Positions 10,612 through 31,767 of a DNA stretch of 64,000 nt are shown piece by piece (positions within the stretch are counted from its first letter, which is position 1; each line of letters opens with the position of its first letter). Location: contig PHFB01000009.1 in the NCBI GenBank assembly GCA_002841355.1, positions 1 through 64,000 of the forward strand, written 5' to 3'. Below the pieces are notes generated by a model, which made no database searches, was not told the origin of the DNA, and saw only the letters and a program-made list of their open reading frames with translations. Made by a program: the position numbers and the translations under genes. Source of the DNA: Actinobacteria bacterium HGW-Actinobacteria-1 (GTDB taxonomy: Bacteria > Actinomycetota > Coriobacteriia > Anaerosomatales > Anaerosomataceae).

Positions 10612-11352
10612 CTACTCGCCGCCCGCCCAGTCGACCACGCCGGTGTCGAGGATGTACTTCGCTCCCACGACTTTGAGTTCTTTGGCCTTCAAAGCCTCTT
10701 CGATGATCGGGCTCGTCTCGAGCACGCCGATCATCCGGTCCACGTTCATGTCCGCGGCCGTCTCGGCGATCTGAGCATCGGTCTTGGCACCGGATGCCTT
10801 GGCGGCTTTCACCGATGGCAGAAGCATCGCAACGATCGAGCCGATGCTTCCCGGTGCCTTGCCGCCGGCGACAGCCGCCTTCACTGCGCCGCAGCCCTGG
10901 TGGCCCATGACGACCACGAGCGGGCTGCCCAGGTGCTCCACGGCATACTCCACGCTACCGAGCGCGATCGGGTCGATAACGTTGCCGGCAACGCGGATCA
11001 CGAAGATGTCGCCGATGCCCTGGTCGAAGAGCAACTCGGCGGGAACGCGAGAGTCGCTGCACGTCAAGATGACCGCGAACGGCTGCTGGCCCTTGGAGAG
11101 CGTCTGAAGGTTCGCGTCGCTGAAGTCCTTTACCGTGATCTCATCGGCAACGAACCGCTCGTTCCCCTCCTTGAGGAGCGTGAGTGCTTCGTCGGGGGAC
11201 TCAACCTTCGCGGGACGCTCGTACTTTGCGACCGTCTCAACCTCGGCCGAGGACTCACTCTCGGTCTTGGTGCCGCTGCAACCGCTGGTTGCGAGCGCCA
11301 GGCCGAGCACGGCAACCACACCGAGGTACCACGCCTTGCGAAGCTTCATCAT
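10612..11352 (-). CDS. lipoprotein beta-carbonic anhydrase
   Basis: A 246-aa beta-class carbonic anhydrase that interconverts CO2 and bicarbonate. Zinc ligands and the catalytic dyad are visible: C98-x-D100-x-R102 in CSDSRVP, and H151-x2-C154 in GHQGCGAV. The first 25 residues form a lipoprotein signal (KAWYLGVVAVLGLALATSGC, with C25 as the lipidated cysteine), so the enzyme should be anchored outside the membrane. Most bacterial beta-enzymes are cytoplasmic, which makes this unusual. GGGAGG precedes the tandem ATGs. A long perfect palindrome lies upstream (11423-11441). The physiological role may be bicarbonate supply at the surface; that is inference. Confidence 0.9.
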   Translation of the reverse strand: MMKLRKAWYLGVVAVLGLALATSGCSGTKTESESSAEVETVAKYERPAKVESPDEALTLLKEGNERFVADEITVKDFSDANLQTLSKGQQPFAVILTCSDSRVPAELLFDQGIGDIFVIRVAGNVIDPIALGSVEYAVEHLGSPLVVVMGHQGCGAVKAAVAGGKAPGSIGSIVAMLLPSVKAAKASGAKTDAQIAETAADMNVDRMIGVLETSPIIEEALKAKELKVVGAKYILDTGVVDWAGGE

Positions 11353-11533: not shown

Positions 11534-14308
11534 CTACTGCGTGTAGTTGAGCACCAGTGGTGTCTCGGCATTGCCGAGCTTGTCCACCGAGTAGTACGTG
11601 AGCGTGTGGTTCCCTGGCGTGTCGGCACCCGGCTGGGTGTTCGCGATGCCGGCCGTCGCGTCGGCGGCGGTGTAGGCCACGTACTCTGCGCCGTCGAAGC
11701 TGTAGTACGTCGTCGCCACACCCGCGATGTTGTCGCTCGCATTCAGGCGCCAGCGCAGCGTACCTGCCGAGGATGTGCTCGTAACCGGGGCCGCGTTGTC
11801 CACGTAGAGCTTCGCGTACGTGAGCGGCGTCTGGTTGCCTGTGAAGTCACGGGCGTAGTACTGGATCTCGAACCACGCGTTGCCGCCGCCGGTATCCCAG
11901 ATGGTTCCGCCGTAGGTGGGCCAGAAGCCCGGCGAGCTCTTGGCCTTGGCGAGGAGCTCCATCGGCGCGATGGTGCGGGTGGAATCCCAGGTGGCGTCCT
12001 GCACGTACGAGAAGTCGTTCATCTGCTGGTAGAACGCCTGGTACGGGAACCAGCCCCAGGTGGTCTTGTACGTCTTCACCTCGGTGTGGATGAACGCCAC
12101 GCCGGTATTGAGGCCGCGCACCTTCGGGTCGACGACGACCATGTCCATCGTCTTGGCCACAAACGTATCAGCGCCAAGCGCGATGCCGCTGAAGGTCACA
12201 GTAGGCGCCGTCACGTCAGTGACGTTGTAGTCCGACGTCTTGATGGCTTCGGTGTGATTCGCCGCGTCCACCGAGTAGTACCGCAGCGTGTGCGCGTACG
12301 GCGGCGAGACGTCAGCCGGGTTCGTGATGCCGTTCGCCTGATCAGCAGCGGTGTAGAGCGTGAATGGCGCACCGTCGAAGCTGTAGTAGGTGGCGACCAC
12401 GCCATCCCCCACATCGGTGGCCGTGAGGCGCCACACGATCGGGTCAGTGCCAGAACGCGCGGCGGTCGTCACCGGAGCGAGGTAGTCCACGCTCGTGGCG
12501 GGCCCGACCTGTCCGCCATGGCAACCGAACGGGCTACCGCACTGCCACCGCTCGGGATCGCCGTGGCATGACTGGCACATGCCCTCCGGTTGCTGTCCGA
12601 TGCTCATGAGCGTGTGGTCCATCGCCCTGGTCGGAGCCGGGTGCTGCGCGACCGGCAGGCCGTCAACGGTCTGCCCGCCGGTGTGACACGCGCCGGTCTG
12701 GCAGGTCCTGTCCCACTCGGCAAAGCTGGTAGCGGGACCATCGGTCGCATGGCACATCGCGCAGTTGGTGTAGTCGCTGCCGTGCAGGCCAAGGAGGTTG
12801 CTGCGGTGGCAGCTCAGGCACGGGAGCTTCACGTAACCCACGACCTGGACGCCGTTCGCGCCCCACTGCGGCTCGCCAACGTACGACTTGTAGGTAGCGC
12901 TGGCCTCATGCACGGTGCCGTGAATCGCCACCGGGTTGTGGCACGACGCGCACCGCTTGTCGTTGGCCGCGATCGCCGCGACCACGTTCGCTGCGGCGCT
13001 TGCATGGCAGCCTTCGCACCCGATCGCCGAGTGGACCGCGGTGAGGTCGCCTCCGTTGTGGCAGCCGGTGCCCGAGCACGCCATCGTCGCGTTCGCGTGC
13101 TGCACGGCGTGCGGCGTGGAGTGACATCCCGAGCAGTCCTTGACGCTCGCCGCGACGGCGTCCTTCGCCTGCGCGCGAGCACTGCTGCCGTGACAGATCG
13201 TGCACTGGTACTTCACGGTCGCCGCGCTTGGGTACTGCGCATGCTCGGACACGAGTGCGGTGCCGTGGCAGGGATCGCAGAACGTGCTCGGCGTCGAACC
13301 CGTGTGGGCATCGGCCGTAAGCGCGTCAGTGTGACGCGCGACATTGGGATACGTGGCGCTGTGGCAGCTCACGCACGTGAAGTTGAGCCCGCTACTGGCC
13401 TCGTTGTCGTGGTTGAACTTGTGGCACTCGGAGTACTGCATGCAGCCGGCCACACTCGGTATCTCGCTGCCGTGCTGGCCGACCGGTGCGAGCGCGTGGT
13501 CGTGGCAGCTCGCGCACACATCCAGCGGATGCGCCGCCGGATACGTGGTGTGGCAGCCGGTGCAGTCCCAGGTGGTGGACATCGGCGGCGAGACCTTGAA
13601 GCTCCACGTCTTGCTCGCGCTCCCTACCGAGGCCCGCGCGGTGAACGCGACCGTGTGCACGCCCGCGGCAAGCGGCGCGCCGGGCGTGTGCGTGTACGTC
13701 TTGGTGGCTGCCGAGTAGGTCATCGGAACTGCGACGCCGTCAAGCAGCATCGTGGAGGTGAACGTCGAATACGGCGAGAGGAGCGTGGCGGAGATGGCCG
13801 CGGGCGATGCCGCAAGGACGGCGTCCACTGCGGGAGTCACCGCGCTCACGCTGGTGCCGGTGACGTTATCGAACGTCCACGTGTACGTGGAGGTGCCCGA
13901 GGCGCTTACCACCGTCGCGACGACCGTGTTGGTGCCGGTCAGCATCGTCCACGCGGTCTTGTAGCTCTCCATCCGAACGACCGTCGGGTCGTCGACCACG
14001 TAGACCTGATCCTCAAGGTCCTCGTCGAAGTACCAGTGGCCGATCGGCCGGGTGACCGATGTGAGTGCCGCAACGCCGTTCACCTTGATCGATGCGCTCA
14101 ATACCGGTGAGCTGTCATCGGCGGTGATCGAGATACTCATCGGCTTCACCAGAACGACCGAGCCGACCGCGGGCGTCGGTGCCGAGAAGACAGCCGCTCC
14201 AGCCGCGAATGCGCTTGCAGTGCCACCCGCGAAGACCATGACGACCGCAAGTAGTACCGATGCCGCGAAGAGCCTCCGCGACGGGCGAGTCCCACCCATT
14301 TCGCTCAC
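11534..14308 (-). CDS. secreted multihaem c-type cytochrome
   Basis: A 924-aa exported protein. A basic N-terminus and hydrophobic segment (LFAASVLLAVVMVFAGGTASA) form the signal. Residues about 30-240 are beta-rich Ig-like repeats. Between about 248 and 595 there are eleven CxxCH haem-binding motifs, plus CSGTGCH and CQTGACH (CX4CH) and CMQYSECH and CGSPFGCH (CX5CH). The maximum is therefore about 15 haems. The C-terminal third carries two copies of a repeat containing TYYSFDGA and HTL.YYSVD, an adhesin-like fold. Likely roles are extracellular or cell-wall electron transfer. No haem lyase or quinone oxidase lies adjacent. The GTG start is uncertain; an ATG lies three codons downstream. Confidence 0.9.
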   Translation of the reverse strand: MSEMGGTRPSRRLFAASVLLAVVMVFAGGTASAFAAGAAVFSAPTPAVGSVVLVKPMSISITADDSSPVLSASIKVNGVAALTSVTRPIGHWYFDEDLEDQVYVVDDPTVVRMESYKTAWTMLTGTNTVVATVVSASGTSTYTWTFDNVTGTSVSAVTPAVDAVLAASPAAISATLLSPYSTFTSTMLLDGVAVPMTYSAATKTYTHTPGAPLAAGVHTVAFTARASVGSASKTWSFKVSPPMSTTWDCTGCHTTYPAAHPLDVCASCHDHALAPVGQHGSEIPSVAGCMQYSECHKFNHDNEASSGLNFTCVSCHSATYPNVARHTDALTADAHTGSTPSTFCDPCHGTALVSEHAQYPSAATVKYQCTICHGSSARAQAKDAVAASVKDCSGCHSTPHAVQHANATMACSGTGCHNGGDLTAVHSAIGCEGCHASAAANVVAAIAANDKRCASCHNPVAIHGTVHEASATYKSYVGEPQWGANGVQVVGYVKLPCLSCHRSNLLGLHGSDYTNCAMCHATDGPATSFAEWDRTCQTGACHTGGQTVDGLPVAQHPAPTRAMDHTLMSIGQQPEGMCQSCHGDPERWQCGSPFGCHGGQVGPATSVDYLAPVTTAARSGTDPIVWRLTATDVGDGVVATYYSFDGAPFTLYTAADQANGITNPADVSPPYAHTLRYYSVDAANHTEAIKTSDYNVTDVTAPTVTFSGIALGADTFVAKTMDMVVVDPKVRGLNTGVAFIHTEVKTYKTTWGWFPYQAFYQQMNDFSYVQDATWDSTRTIAPMELLAKAKSSPGFWPTYGGTIWDTGGGNAWFEIQYYARDFTGNQTPLTYAKLYVDNAAPVTSTSSAGTLRWRLNASDNIAGVATTYYSFDGAEYVAYTAADATAGIANTQPGADTPGNHTLTYYSVDKLGNAETPLVLNYTQ

Positions 14309-26637: not shown

Positions 26638-26708
26638 TCCCCCGTCTTAAGCGACCCCCGTCACTTCGTGATTTGTTCACGATATCAGAGGGTCGTCAGA
26701 CAACAAGA

Positions 26709-26734
26709 CCCCGCCGCGACGGATCGCAGCGGGG
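26709..26734 (-). terminator. terminator of the glutamate synthase operon
   Basis: CCCCGC (26709-26714) pairs with GCGGGG (26729-26734), with further partial pairing inside. It lies 25 bp beyond the stop of the GXGXG subunit gene. It differs in sequence from the stem-loop after the duplicated copy at 25317. Confidence 0.6.
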
Positions 26735-26758
26735 CCTCGTCAACTGGGTTAGCGCCAC

Positions 26759-27580
26759 CTACATGGGCGCGTACATCTTGCCGTACGGGCGGTGGCTGAA
26801 CGGCGCGAGCTTGGTGAACGGCACCGAGAGTACCTCGGCCAGGTCCATGCCCTGCGCGTCGCAGTAGTCAGCCAGGGTCGGCTTGAGCGCAGCCATGTCT
26901 TCCTCGGTGGCCTCGGTGATGCCAACTTCCTTGCCGCACTGCCAGGACTCGACCGTGCCGCGCAGATAGATGACGCCGCCGTGCATGCCGGCGCCCACGA
27001 ACGAGCCCACCAGCGGCTGCTCGGCGAACTGGGTGTTCATGCCCAGGAGTACCAGGATGCCGCCGGCCATGTACTCGCCGAAGAAGTCGCGCGCGTTGCC
27101 GCCGCACACCATGATCGGGATGAGCGACTCGTACGCCTTCATGTGAATGCCCACGCGGTAGCCCACGTCGCCCTTCACGTACACGGCGCCGCCGCGCATG
27201 CCGTAGCCAAGCACGTCGCCCGCGTCGCCATGCACGATCACCTTGCCGGCGTTCATCGTGTTGCCAACGCCGTCCTGCGCCGCGCCGAAGACTTCGATCG
27301 TGGGGCCGTCCATGAACATCGCCATGTCGTTGCCCGCCGTACCGTGGACCTCGATGGTCACGCCCTTGGCCTTCACGCCGGTGCCGATGTAGCGCTGGCC
27401 GTTCACGTTGTTGAGCACAACGCGCGTCGCACCCTCGGCGATCGCACCGCGAATCGCCTCATTGAGCTGACGGTAGTAGATACCGGTCGCGTCGATGGTG
27501 GCCGTGTCGCCGTCGCGCACAACCGTCGGCGCGACTTTGAGGTAGCCTTCCGTGACTCCTGGAGCCATCTGTCGTGGCAT
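26759..27580 (-). CDS. glutamate synthase GXGXG subunit (GltB domain 3)
   Basis: A 273-aa right-handed beta-helix protein equivalent to the C-terminal domain of GltB. It shows the G-x-x-G-x-x-x-G repeats of the family, e.g. GVTIEVHGTAGNDMAMFMDG, VIVHGDAGDVLGYGMRGG and IPIMVCGGNARDFFGEYMAGG. In the split archaeal-type glutamate synthase, this scaffold subunit joins the amidotransferase and FMN subunits. It is the third gltB-type gene of the operon, 10 bp after the FMN subunit. Its last 25 codons are duplicated at 25381-25470. Confidence 0.92.
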   Translation of the reverse strand: MPRQMAPGVTEGYLKVAPTVVRDGDTATIDATGIYYRQLNEAIRGAIAEGATRVVLNNVNGQRYIGTGVKAKGVTIEVHGTAGNDMAMFMDGPTIEVFGAAQDGVGNTMNAGKVIVHGDAGDVLGYGMRGGAVYVKGDVGYRVGIHMKAYESLIPIMVCGGNARDFFGEYMAGGILVLLGMNTQFAEQPLVGSFVGAGMHGGVIYLRGTVESWQCGKEVGITEATEEDMAALKPTLADYCDAQGMDLAEVLSVPFTKLAPFSHRPYGKMYAPM

Positions 27581-27590
27581 CGTGCCTCCC

Positions 27591-29102
27591 CTACATCCCC
27601 GCCGGCTTGACGCCGAGGACCTTGTTCATCTGCTCGTCCAGGCCAATCGAGCGCAGGCGCTCGCGCGAGCCGCGAAGCGACTCCACCGCGTTCACGCCAA
27701 GCGCGCCGAGGATCTCCTGCAGCTCGTGGCTCCACGCGTGCACGAGGTTGGTGAGCTGCTCGGCACCCCACTCGGGATCGATGCGGCGCGTGAGCTCCGG
27801 CTTCTGCGTGGTGATGCCCCAGCTGCAGCTACCGGTGTGGCAGCTCTGGCAGAGGTGGCAGCCAAGCGCCATAAGCGACGCCGAGCCGATCGCGACAGCG
27901 TCGGCGCCAAGCGCGATCGCCTTGGCGACATCTGCCGAGGAGCGGATCGAGCCTGCGGCGATAACCGACGCCCAGTTGCGGATGCCTTCGTCGCGCAGGC
28001 GCTGGTCCACGGCCGCGATGGCAATCTCGATCGGGATACCGATGTGGTCGCGGATGACCTGCGGCGCCGCGCCGGTGCCGCCCTTGAAGCCGTCGAGGTA
28101 CACGTAGTCGGCACCCGCGCGCACGATACCGCTCGCGATGGCAGCCACGTTGTGCACGGCGGCGATCTTCACGCCAACCGGCTTGTAGCCGCTTGCTTCC
28201 TTGAGCGCGTAGATGAGCTGGCGCAGGTCTTCGATGGAGTAGATGTCGTGGTGCGGCGCCGGGCTGATCGCGTCGGTCCCCTGCGGGATCATGCGCGTGC
28301 CCGAGACTTCCTTGTTGATCTTCTCGCCCGGCAGGTGGCCACCGATGCCCGGCTTGGCGCCCTGGCCGATCTTGATCTCGATTGCAGCACCGCGGTTGAG
28401 GTAATCCGGGTTCACGCCGAAGCGGCCGGATGCCACCTGGACGATGACGTTGTCCTGGTACGGATACAGATCCGCGTGCAGACCGCCTTCGCCGGTGTTC
28501 ATGAACGTCCCCAGGCGCTGCGCGGCCATCGCGAGCGACTTGTGGACGTTCAAGGAGACCGAGCCGTAGCTCATCGGCGAGAACAGGATCGGCGTGTCGA
28601 GCTTGAGGTTGTTCTTCATGCCCTCGCCCTCGGCAAGGCGGAAGCCGCCCTGGCCGTCGGACTCAACGCCAACGCTGTCCGGCTTGTGGCCGATGAACGT
28701 GCGGAGCTCCATCGGCTCGCGGAGCGGGTCGATGGAGGGGTTCGTGACCTGGCACGCATCGAGGACCAGGTGGTCGAAGATGCGCGTATACGGCAGCGGG
28801 TTGCCCATGGAGGTGAGGAGCACGCCGCCCGTCTCGGCCTGACGCCAGACGGCCTTGCGCGCCGCGGGCGACCAGTTGTCGTTGTCGCGGTACGCAAGCT
28901 GGTTCTTCTCGATGGAGATGCAGTGCGCCGGGCAGTACGTCACGCAGCGGTGACAGGCGCGGCACTTCGCGTCGTCCGGGATGGGACGCTCGTTGAAGTT
29001 GTAGACGCCCCAGCCGCACTGCTGCACGCAGCGACCGCACTTGTGGCACTTGTCGTAATCGATCTTGACCTTGAACTCAGGCTGGATGAATGACGTTGGC
29101 AT
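27591..29102 (-). CDS. glutamate synthase FMN/4Fe-4S subunit (GltB domain 2, archaeal type)
   Basis: A 503-aa protein combining an N-terminal ferredoxin-like region with the FMN-dependent glutamate synthase barrel. CHKCGRCVQQC and CRACHRCVTYC, near residues 19-65, bind two 4Fe-4S clusters. The barrel has MSYGSVSLNVHKSLAMAA, GEGGLHADLYPY, GQGAKPGIGGHLPG and KAIALGADAVAIGSA. A cysteine set near residue 425 (CHLCQSCHTGSC) is the 3Fe-4S type cluster of glutamate synthases. It turns 2-oxoglutarate plus ammonia, channelled from the amidotransferase subunit, into glutamate. The fused ferredoxin domain suggests a reduced ferredoxin or HdrBC-type donor instead of a GltD subunit. Confidence 0.94.
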   Translation of the reverse strand: MPTSFIQPEFKVKIDYDKCHKCGRCVQQCGWGVYNFNERPIPDDAKCRACHRCVTYCPAHCISIEKNQLAYRDNDNWSPAARKAVWRQAETGGVLLTSMGNPLPYTRIFDHLVLDACQVTNPSIDPLREPMELRTFIGHKPDSVGVESDGQGGFRLAEGEGMKNNLKLDTPILFSPMSYGSVSLNVHKSLAMAAQRLGTFMNTGEGGLHADLYPYQDNVIVQVASGRFGVNPDYLNRGAAIEIKIGQGAKPGIGGHLPGEKINKEVSGTRMIPQGTDAISPAPHHDIYSIEDLRQLIYALKEASGYKPVGVKIAAVHNVAAIASGIVRAGADYVYLDGFKGGTGAAPQVIRDHIGIPIEIAIAAVDQRLRDEGIRNWASVIAAGSIRSSADVAKAIALGADAVAIGSASLMALGCHLCQSCHTGSCSWGITTQKPELTRRIDPEWGAEQLTNLVHAWSHELQEILGALGVNAVESLRGSRERLRSIGLDEQMNKVLGVKPAGM

Positions 29103-29103
29103 C

Positions 29104-30309
29104 TTACGCGTTCACCTCCACGGTGTCGCAGGAGACTTCGGTACCGGTGACCGCGCAGGAGATGTCCGAGGGCGACAGGTGCAAGTCGCCGTGGATCGGC
29201 CACTCCATGCCCTGCACACGGGCGACGGTGGGCTCGCCGGCCTTCGGCATCCAGATGGAGTCCGGCTCGGGGATAACGGCGCGGATCGCGCTCTCTTCCG
29301 AGGCGACCATCAGGATCGAGCCCTTGCGCGCCGCGACCAGCGGACGCAGCTTGATGCGGTCGTTCAGGGCAACCATGCCGCCGTTGAAGCCGAGCACGAT
29401 CGCGAACGGGCCGTTGAGCATGCCGGGTCCGTACACCGCACGCAGCGAGCGCATGACGGCCTGCTCGGCCTCGGGCATGCGGTCGATCTCGTCCCACAGC
29501 GGCGAGGCAAGCGCCTTGCACGCGAGCTCCATCGGGAGCTTGTGGCGGCGAAGCATGAGGTCGAAGAGGTACGCGGCGACCTCGGTGTCGGTCCCCAGCG
29601 TGCACTTGTAGCCGAACTGCTCCAGATAGCGGCTGTTGATGCCGTAGCTGGAGATCTCGCCGTTGTGCACGATCGTCCAGTCCAGCAGCGCGAACGGGTG
29701 CGCGCCGCCCCACCAGCCCGGGGTGTTCGTCGGGAAGCGGTTGTGACCGGTCCACGTGTGGCCTTCGTACTCTTCCAGGCGGAAGTAGTGGCCGATCTCC
29801 TCGGGATAGCCAACGCCCTTGAAGACGCCCATGTTCTTGCCCGAGGAGGCCACGAACGCGCCGTCAACCGACGAGTTGATCTGCATGACGGCCTTCACCA
29901 CGTAGTCCTCGGCGGAAAGCTCCGACTCTTCGAGCTTGTTGGGATACGGGTTGAGGAAGTAGCGCCACAGAAGCGGCGCGTCGGCGATGCCCTTGACCGG
30001 ACGGGTCGGCATCGGCTCGGCCAGGTCGACCAGGAAGTACTGGTCGAAGAGCGCCTCGGCCTCTTCTTTGGCCTGGATGTCGTGGTACATCATGTGGAAC
30101 GCGAAGTGATCCGGGAACTCGGGGTAGATGCCGTAACCGGCGAATCCACCGCCCAGGCCGTTGCCACGGTCGTGCTGGACGGCCATCGCAAGGATGGCGT
30201 CCTCGCCGCTCATAAGCTTTCCGCTCTCATCGCAGATGCCCATGAGACCGCAGCCGCCGTGGATCTTGTACGACGCCTCTTCGGCGTAGCGCGGGCGCGC
30301 CGTGGTCAT
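29104..30309 (-). CDS. glutamate synthase glutaminase subunit (GltB domain 1)
   Basis: A 401-aa class II glutamine amidotransferase. The nucleophile is Cys20 in HGGCGLMGI, after a 19-residue propeptide that must be cleaved to free the N-terminal cysteine. Downstream blocks are FPTNTPGWWGGAHPF, SSYGINSRYL and DTEVAAYLFD. It supplies ammonia from glutamine to the FMN subunit. The start MTTARPRY at 30309 is chosen because the longer frame overlaps the upstream gene. It begins 2 bp after the hdrBC-like stop and is followed with 1 bp spacing by the FMN subunit, so it forms a tight operon. Confidence 0.93.
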   Translation of the reverse strand: MTTARPRYAEEASYKIHGGCGLMGICDESGKLMSGEDAILAMAVQHDRGNGLGGGFAGYGIYPEFPDHFAFHMMYHDIQAKEEAEALFDQYFLVDLAEPMPTRPVKGIADAPLLWRYFLNPYPNKLEESELSAEDYVVKAVMQINSSVDGAFVASSGKNMGVFKGVGYPEEIGHYFRLEEYEGHTWTGHNRFPTNTPGWWGGAHPFALLDWTIVHNGEISSYGINSRYLEQFGYKCTLGTDTEVAAYLFDLMLRRHKLPMELACKALASPLWDEIDRMPEAEQAVMRSLRAVYGPGMLNGPFAIVLGFNGGMVALNDRIKLRPLVAARKGSILMVASEESAIRAVIPEPDSIWMPKAGEPTVARVQGMEWPIHGDLHLSPSDISCAVTGTEVSCDTVEVNA

Positions 30310-30310
30310 G

Positions 30311-31645
30311 CTACTCAACTCCCTCGTCGTTATCAGCAAGCAGGCGCGAGAGCGCCTCGCCACCCGATGCGGGCAGCGGTGATAGTCCAAGCTTCTTGCG
30401 GGTGGACTCTCTCGGCGCACCGAGCATGCCCGTCTTGCGGAAGGTGTCATACGCCGAGCCGACCTGCTCCGGCGCGGTGCCGGCCTCAACGGCGAGCTCC
30501 TTGAGCTTGCGGAACGCGTCGGCCATGCCGATGCGGCTGGGGCAGAGCTCCTGGCACGTGTAGCACTCCAGGCACTTCCAGACCTGCGGGTCGGCGAGCA
30601 CTTCGTCGATCTCGCCCTTGAGCAGGCGCTCGATGATCTCGGTGGGCTGGTAGTTGGTGTCGACCTTGCACACCGGGCAGTCGTCCTTGCACGCCTGGCA
30701 GTTCACGCACTTGGAGAGGAGCGACACGTCGAAGAGCGTGGCAAGCCGCGCCTTATCGGCCTGGCGGTCGTCCCACTTCTCCAGGAACGGATCGACCGAC
30801 ACGCGGTGCATGTCCAGGCCGATCTCGTCCGGCGCATGTCCCATCCCCAGCGCGATCAGCTCCGAGAGGTACAGCACCGGAACGTTCACGTCCTCCTTGG
30901 CGCGCTGGAGTGCGGCCTGATTGAGGTCGAACTGCTGGAAGCAGCTGGGGCAGACCACCACAAGCGCGTCGACGTCGTTCTTCATGAGGTCCATGAGCTT
31001 GCGACGCGCGAATGCGAGCGAACCCTCGCGCTCGCCCACGCGGTCGAGCGCGTTGCCGCAGCACTGCATCTTGGTGGTGTAATCCACGACCGTGGCGCCA
31101 AGGCCGGCGATGAGCGCCTCGACCTTGGTCGGGTTGAGCGGGTCGTCCCAGCGCACGGCCGGGCTCGGGCGCAGCAGGTGGCAGCCGTAGTGCACGGCGA
31201 TGCGCATGCCCCAGAACGGCTTCTTGAGCTTGGAGGCGATGAGTCCCGCACCCATATCTTCCGAGAGCCACTCGGCGAAGTGCGTGACCTGCACACGGCC
31301 GTCGTAGTGGAGATCCTGGGCGGCGAGCTTCTCGTTGATCGCGTCTTTCAGGCGCCAGTCGGTGGTGAGGTGGCTCTGCGCCTCCTTGAAGGTGGAGTAG
31401 CAGCCGTTGCACGGCGTCACCACGCCAAGACCCGCCTTCTCGACAAGCGCGAGGTTGCGCGCCGCGGTCGAGTAGAACGCATTCTCGTCGTTGGCCTTAA
31501 CGAGCACACCCTCGGGGCAGCACGTGTGGCCCTCGAGTTCATGCACGGTCGCGCCCAGGTCATCGAAGACAAGCCGAGTGGCCTTCTCGATGAACGGGAA
31601 CCGCGCGGGGATGGTGCATCCCCAGAAGACTGCGAATTCCTTCAT
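30311..31645 (-). CDS. HdrBC-like fusion protein (CCG domains plus 4Fe-4S ferredoxin domain)
   Basis: A 444-aa protein that fuses an HdrB-type N-terminus to an HdrC-type C-terminus. The N-terminal part starts EFAVFWGCTIPARFPFIEKA and has cysteine-rich HTCCPEGVL and MQCCGNALDRVG (CCG-type motifs for non-cubane Fe-S clusters). The C-terminal part has CVNCQACKDDCPVC and CLECYTCQELCP, giving two 4Fe-4S clusters. HdrBC proteins carry electrons to and from disulfides or ferredoxins. As the first gene of the glutamate synthase operon, it is plausibly the electron donor module. The start at MKEF is chosen over an upstream ATG because of the AGGTG ribosome site. Confidence 0.85.
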   Translation of the reverse strand: MKEFAVFWGCTIPARFPFIEKATRLVFDDLGATVHELEGHTCCPEGVLVKANDENAFYSTAARNLALVEKAGLGVVTPCNGCYSTFKEAQSHLTTDWRLKDAINEKLAAQDLHYDGRVQVTHFAEWLSEDMGAGLIASKLKKPFWGMRIAVHYGCHLLRPSPAVRWDDPLNPTKVEALIAGLGATVVDYTTKMQCCGNALDRVGEREGSLAFARRKLMDLMKNDVDALVVVCPSCFQQFDLNQAALQRAKEDVNVPVLYLSELIALGMGHAPDEIGLDMHRVSVDPFLEKWDDRQADKARLATLFDVSLLSKCVNCQACKDDCPVCKVDTNYQPTEIIERLLKGEIDEVLADPQVWKCLECYTCQELCPSRIGMADAFRKLKELAVEAGTAPEQVGSAYDTFRKTGMLGAPRESTRKKLGLSPLPASGGEALSRLLADNDEGVE

Positions 31646-31767
31646 GCGCACCTGCCGATCGTCATCGGTCCCTGACAAAACCAAAACGCCCACCACCGGC
31701 CTCTTGGCCGAGGTGAGCGCCATTGCTCACGAAAACTATGACAGCACGCCGTTGTGCTGGTTCGGGG

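Follow-up and report, generated by a model that had tools for sequence, protein, structure and literature searches.

The gene that occupies positions 11534 to 14308 on the minus strand of the window (the whole stretch of 64,000 nucleotides analysed here) probably encodes a secreted, modular c-type cytochrome with 15 haems, which would serve as an electron carrier on the cell surface or beyond it in a Gram-positive member of the class Coriobacteriia, probably of the order Anaerosomatales. The haem-attachment motifs, the full accounting of the cysteines, the conserved histidines of distal type and the haem-lyase genes of the genome are established in the sequence itself. Counting by CXXCH would miss 4 of the 15 haem sites of this protein, since these belong to longer motifs; of greater interest than the long motifs themselves is a haem site whose homologues in relatives appear to carry a freely varying loop.

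Architecture and modular origin of the cytochrome

The 924-residue product carries eleven CX2CH motifs (starting at residues 249, 265, 312, 344, 369, 392, 431, 453, 497, 516 and 578), two CX4CH motifs and two CX5CH motifs, an inventory that matches exactly the motif tally given, with exact coordinates, in a preliminary description of this DNA. All 30 cysteines of the protein fall inside these 15 motifs and none elsewhere, and residues 249-597 hold 15 histidines outside the motifs, as many as 15 bis-histidine haems would require; this suggests such ligation, although the equality may in part be coincidence. In 20,000 shuffles of the haem region the mean number of CXnCH motifs (n = 2-5) was 0.64 and the maximum 5, against the 15 observed, and when the four leftover cysteines were placed at random, just 1 trial in 200,000 gave each 'CH' outside the CX2CH motifs a partner at a distance of 3-6 residues. 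Chance origin is excluded for the 15-motif set as a whole. The features of the gene, in window coordinates, are as follows.

11534..14308, minus strand: multihaem c-type cytochrome gene, 924 residues, GTG start
14201..14308, minus strand: putative Sec signal peptide, about residues 1-36, read by eye from the translation
13589..14200, minus strand: N-terminal beta-rich, possibly Ig/CopC-like region, residues 37-240, from weak CopC matches and the alignment with L034
12518..13564, minus strand: whole haem region, residues 249-597, with 15 motifs and 15 further histidines
13325..13582, minus strand: four-haem module, residues 243-328, whose third-site spacing differs among relatives
13421..13444, minus strand: CX5CH (CMQYSECH), residues 289-296, replaced by CX11CH in the nearest relatives of the N-terminal half
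13058..13078, minus strand: CX4CH (CSGTGCH), residues 411-417, retained in 2 of 2 orthologues
12683..12703, minus strand: CX4CH (CQTGACH), residues 536-542, within a W..TC.QG.CH signature recurrent across the order
12518..12541, minus strand: CX5CH (CGSPFGCH), residues 590-597, retained in 2 of 2 orthologues
12209..12496, minus strand: first OmpL47-type repeat, about residues 605-700, one of the two NF047446 stretches, the repeat being visible in the translation
11864..12208, minus strand: rare middle domain, residues 701-815, present in 3 of 69 genomes of the order
11537..11863, minus strand: second OmpL47-type repeat, about residues 816-924, with the best NF047446 stretch at residues 854-917

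The protein had been taken for an exported multihaem cytochrome with genuine long-spaced motifs; the motifs are verified, and membership of the cytochrome c3/c7-like multihaem proteins is indicated by profile matches to Cytochrom_c3_2 (PF14537, 46.2 bits against a cut-off of 25) and Cytochrome_C7 (PF14522, 43.7 bits against 24.8) together with the presence of several CXnCH motifs, export being read by eye only. These were the only two Pfam matches at E up to 1, with no SLH, S-layer or other anchor domain and none in the N-terminal 240 residues, and by eye no LPXTG sorting signal is present, the C-terminus reading LVLNYTQ. The two C-terminal TYYSFDGA-type repeats described earlier correspond to two stretches matched by the NCBIfam OmpL47-type domain NF047446 (68.4 bits, cut-off 40); the OmpL47 equivalog NF047441 scores far under its own cut-off (21.1 bits against 250), and the OmpL47 label is the sole footing of the term 'adhesin-like' formerly applied to these repeats. 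The label Ig-like once given to the N-terminal repeats is weakly supported: no Ig domain was matched in Pfam, and CopC chains match residues 155-239 weakly in a PDB search (E 0.0012 and above), a marginal likeness that fits a beta-sandwich. Further large proteins of the order also contain the OmpL47-type repeat, such as that of a 1627-codon open frame on contig C8 of the same genome. A scan of four more large cytochromes from this genome showed the domain only in a 1643-codon one (L134:6084-11015, contig C21), which has 23 motifs and four CX4CH sites.

A search of 61 genomes (the own genome and 60 relatives) gave matches in 38 at E up to 1e-5, mainly to single domains. The C-terminal half has close relatives, at about 60% identity, in G041 and G050 only, and a scan of genome contigs returned two loci, both on the contigs of these genomes already found. 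The N-terminal half resembles distinct proteins of G041 (L034, 48% over residues 13-457) and of G049; because the matches to the two halves lie on different genes of G041, the window protein joins two halves that are separate in that genome. The C-half orthologue of G050 has another N-terminal half, and the C-half gene of G041 runs off its contig. In the former protein (L037:1724-4690) the differing N-terminal half is haem-rich and includes a long haem-free stretch, an arrangement that points to module shuffling. The cytochrome is most likely built from shuffled modules. The middle domain, in its 3 of 69 genomes, is spread over two families, and congeners show no collinearity at the locus; horizontal transfer was considered, and these patchy patterns would fit gain and loss while proving neither.

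The cytochrome gene is surrounded by genes for a carbonic anhydrase, a glutamine synthetase, a protein of metallo-beta-lactamase fold and a hypothetical protein, with no operon partner beside it or beside its relatives and no conserved neighbourhood found in the latter. In the congener G003, a homologue of the carbonic anhydrase lies near sequence matching window positions 26694-31738, which indicates that the locus has been rearranged. The adjoining carbonic anhydrase itself (window 10612-11352) has a lipoprotein-like N-terminus.

A homologous haem site of variable spacing

The CX5CH motif at residue 289 is the third site of the four-haem module. When the window protein is aligned with L034 of G041, the lone gap in this region is one of 6 residues and falls precisely between the two cysteines of this site, with conserved flanks on either side (PS/TVAGCM before, CHxFxH after). 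Ten genomes of the order supplied 16 distinct modules for a wider comparison; these were fetched as loci similar to the protein or to the module and are hence no census. They were counted by a pattern in which sites 1 and 2 were free and the rest unconstrained, from 18 seeds of which L134 and L006 were dropped as not being the module, and the 16 do not include one more case, with n = 3, on L047 of genome G004, which the pattern missed. Sites 1, 2 and 4 are CX2CH in all 16 modules, and the number of residues between the cysteines of site 3 is 5 in four modules, 2 or 11 in three each, 3 or 4 in two each, and 6 or 13 in one each. In each of the 13 modules with n other than 2, both cysteines and the histidine have survived the insertions or deletions between them. 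An alignment of six modules, in which the row of L043 is misaligned around site 3, places four non-motif histidines in register (window-module positions 18, 37, 58 and 84), which again would provide two axial ligands per haem in the module.

The CX4CH motif at residue 536 belongs to a recurrent signature, W-x-x-T/S-C-x-x-x-x-CH. Among 43 tryptophan-proximal motifs in the loci collected, 25 have n = 4, 17 have n = 2 and one has n = 3, the n = 2 cases mostly falling outside the signature. Read together with the length series at site 3, this indicates one long site that is fixed in length and another that is free; in the N-terminal module the loop at haem 3 would be free to vary, with a spacing that may be evolutionarily tunable, while another site keeps its CX4CH. 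The preliminary description held that a lack of conservation in orthologues would speak against the spaced motifs; those at residues 411, 536 and 590 are retained in both C-half orthologues (L036/L050 and L037/L051), conservation evidence that is thin because just these 2 are known. At residue 431, where the window protein has CEGCH, the same two orthologues (L050:33-1814, L051:445-3405) have CGCH, an apparent CX1CH that arises by a one-residue deletion amid conserved sequence.

The long spacings had also been called rare, which is wrong locally. In a set of 32 multihaem open reading frames of the own genome (frames with three or more CX2CH motifs from the Cytochrom_c3_2 search, and from stretches around its matches), 397 motifs comprise 367 with n = 2, 13 with n = 4, 10 with n = 3, three with n = 1, two with n = 5, one with n = 7 and one with n = 12. 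CX3CH and CX4CH, at 23 of 397, are therefore routine rather than exotic in this genome, and the CX4CH signature recurs across the order. Both n = 5 motifs of the set lie in the window cytochrome, to which this spacing is special within the set.

A literature search by motif spelling (CX5CH, CX11CH, CXXXXXCH) returned none among the matches listed, and within the searches run we know of no prior description of the site-3 length series. The module offers such a series for a single homologous haem, and the organisms concerned have System I and System II genes together; this makes the spacing tolerance of haem lyase directly testable. A tentative further step, to which we attach less than even weight, is that this one inter-cysteine segment is, throughout the order, an exposed loop that evolves freely (n = 2, 3, 4, 5, 6, 11 and 13) and tunes contact with an acceptor or partner cytochrome, and that the haem lyases of the hosts take almost any spacing, including the apparent CX1CH of two orthologues. 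If so, the 'CXXCH rule' would be a default rather than a requirement, and CXXCH-based haem counts would be systematically low here.

Haem maturation, cell envelope and competing readings

The maturation system and the further cytochromes whose presence had been suggested as a check were found in the form of System I, two ResB-CcsA pairs and the 32 multihaem frames. Contig C23 carries a CcmE-CcmF-CcmB-CcmC run, in which CcmE, CcmF and CcmB are called by Pfam and CcmC by an NCBIfam match of 113 bits that is under the curated cut-off of 186, and a second CcmF lies on contig C21. Cytochrom_C_asm is matched in 69 of 69 genomes of the order and ResB in 57 of 69. The window cytochrome gene has no maturation genes beside it, and the list of such genes permits no pairing of lyase to motif. 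The CcmE-like protein of the run (L077:7366-8085), adjoining CcmF and CcmB, has two CcmE stretches per chain, which is unusual for System I. On contig C28 (L075:6484-15210), a 1087-codon open frame lies between the two ResB-CcsA pairs; it has 19 CX2CH motifs and matches to MtrC/MtrF-like domains. An open frame of 2301 codons on contig C22 (L131:1494-8399) contains 17 CH motifs, leaves six cysteines spare, and matches Paired_CXXCH and, below threshold, a purple-acid-phosphatase N-terminal domain.

Attachment of haem at all 15 sites is judged very likely. Each would be held by bis-histidine ligation, the haems would form a chain, and the extra residues of the CX4CH and CX5CH motifs would bulge away from the haem site in the manner of the CX14CH loop of OmcZ. 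The opposing reading, in which haem is bound at CX2CH (perhaps at CX4CH too) and the CX5CH motifs are disulfides or empty remnants, would leave 11-13 haems; it draws on the dedicated lyases described for CX15CH (PMC3601427, PMC10663686), in accounts that also cover machinery reserved for CXXCK. A remnant would be expected to lose a cysteine or the histidine, and the retention of all three at site 3 through changes in length, together with that of CX5CH 590 in both orthologues, argues against this reading, which we regard as improbable.

The genome yielded no Omp85 in a search with positive controls and gave two sortase matches, which together indicate a single-membrane Gram-positive envelope, a conclusion that is well supported by these gene contents. 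The proposal of a conduit through a thick Gram-positive wall keeps this envelope type, but passage through the wall finds no LPXTG signal, SLH or other anchor domain in the protein to lean on, and we consider it unlikely that the window cytochrome crosses the wall by itself. A role in electron transfer at the surface or outside the cell is favoured, if not strongly, and the beta-rich N- and C-terminal repeats may hold the cytochrome on the envelope, on mineral or on partner cytochromes. The protein could instead be a store or carrier of electrons in a periplasm-like wall space, or a soluble secreted reductase: its signal-like N-terminus comes with no anchor, many other large cytochromes could cross the wall, and the reported tendency of motif variations to occur in enzymatic multihaem proteins (PMC4429474) slightly favours a reductase. 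The flanking beta-rich repeats, which further large proteins of the order carry as well, suit an envelope or surface role, and we hold this alternative to be rather unlikely. Least probable is a filament-forming nanowire of the OmcZ, OmcS or OmcE kind; the reported place of the looped long motif of OmcZ at a filament interface (PMC9473688) speaks for it, but the window cytochrome shows no sequence kinship to these solved filament cytochromes, with 0 cytochrome chains among 9 PDB matches at E up to 1, and carries large flanking beta domains, the AlphaFold2 models from three-row alignments being unusable (mean pLDDT 29.8 for the whole protein and 34.8 for residues 600-924).

Comparison with known systems

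The reading of a surface or extracellular electron carrier places the window cytochrome beside several known systems. Cultured members of OPB41/Anaerosomatales are reported to be Gram-positive, to couple H2 or formate to Fe(III), thiosulfate or sulfur, and to encode 17-18 multihaem proteins (PMC9686372). Like the window cytochrome as read here, the multihaem proteins of Anaerosomatales, Thermincola and Carboxydothermus are secreted by Gram-positive cells, and they have been proposed to serve Fe(III) reduction (PMC9686372, PMC7829351); no named sequence homologue is established among them, and the spacing series is undescribed in the portions of these accounts available. The cytochrome enlarges the set of proteins available to Gram-positive Coriobacteriia for extracellular electron transfer, a set of which little is known. 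With OmpL47-type domain proteins it shares a domain that is matched twice, but not the match to the OmpL47 equivalog. The large MHC-A/B/C proteins of ANME likewise combine numerous haems with surface domains of non-haem type, in organisms that lack an outer membrane (PMC9012536), but are archaeal, have 20-86 haems and bear S-layer or pectin-lyase domains, the S-layer match being absent from the window cytochrome.

In spacing, two systems come closest. MmcA of Methanosarcina acetivorans similarly sets non-CX2CH sites (CX3CH and CX4CH) among CX2CH ones, and haem on its CXXXCH and CXXXXCH motifs is reported from mass spectrometry (PMC11024163); it differs in having seven haems, an archaeal Rnf partner and no CX5CH, and flanking repeats of OmpL47 type are unreported in the part of that account available. 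OmcZ of Geobacter sulfurreducens (CX14CH) also has a long inter-cysteine loop among CX2CH haems, a 14-residue segment reported to lie at a subunit interface and to have a role with soluble acceptors (PMC9473688, PMC11208441), and some Borg OmcZ proteins are reported to be without the long motif (PMC11208441). OmcZ has 8 haems, a single long motif and no sequence match to the window cytochrome, whereas the latter has four long motifs, and, as against the one long motif of OmcZ, the homologous module site in relatives of the window cytochrome takes at least seven lengths.
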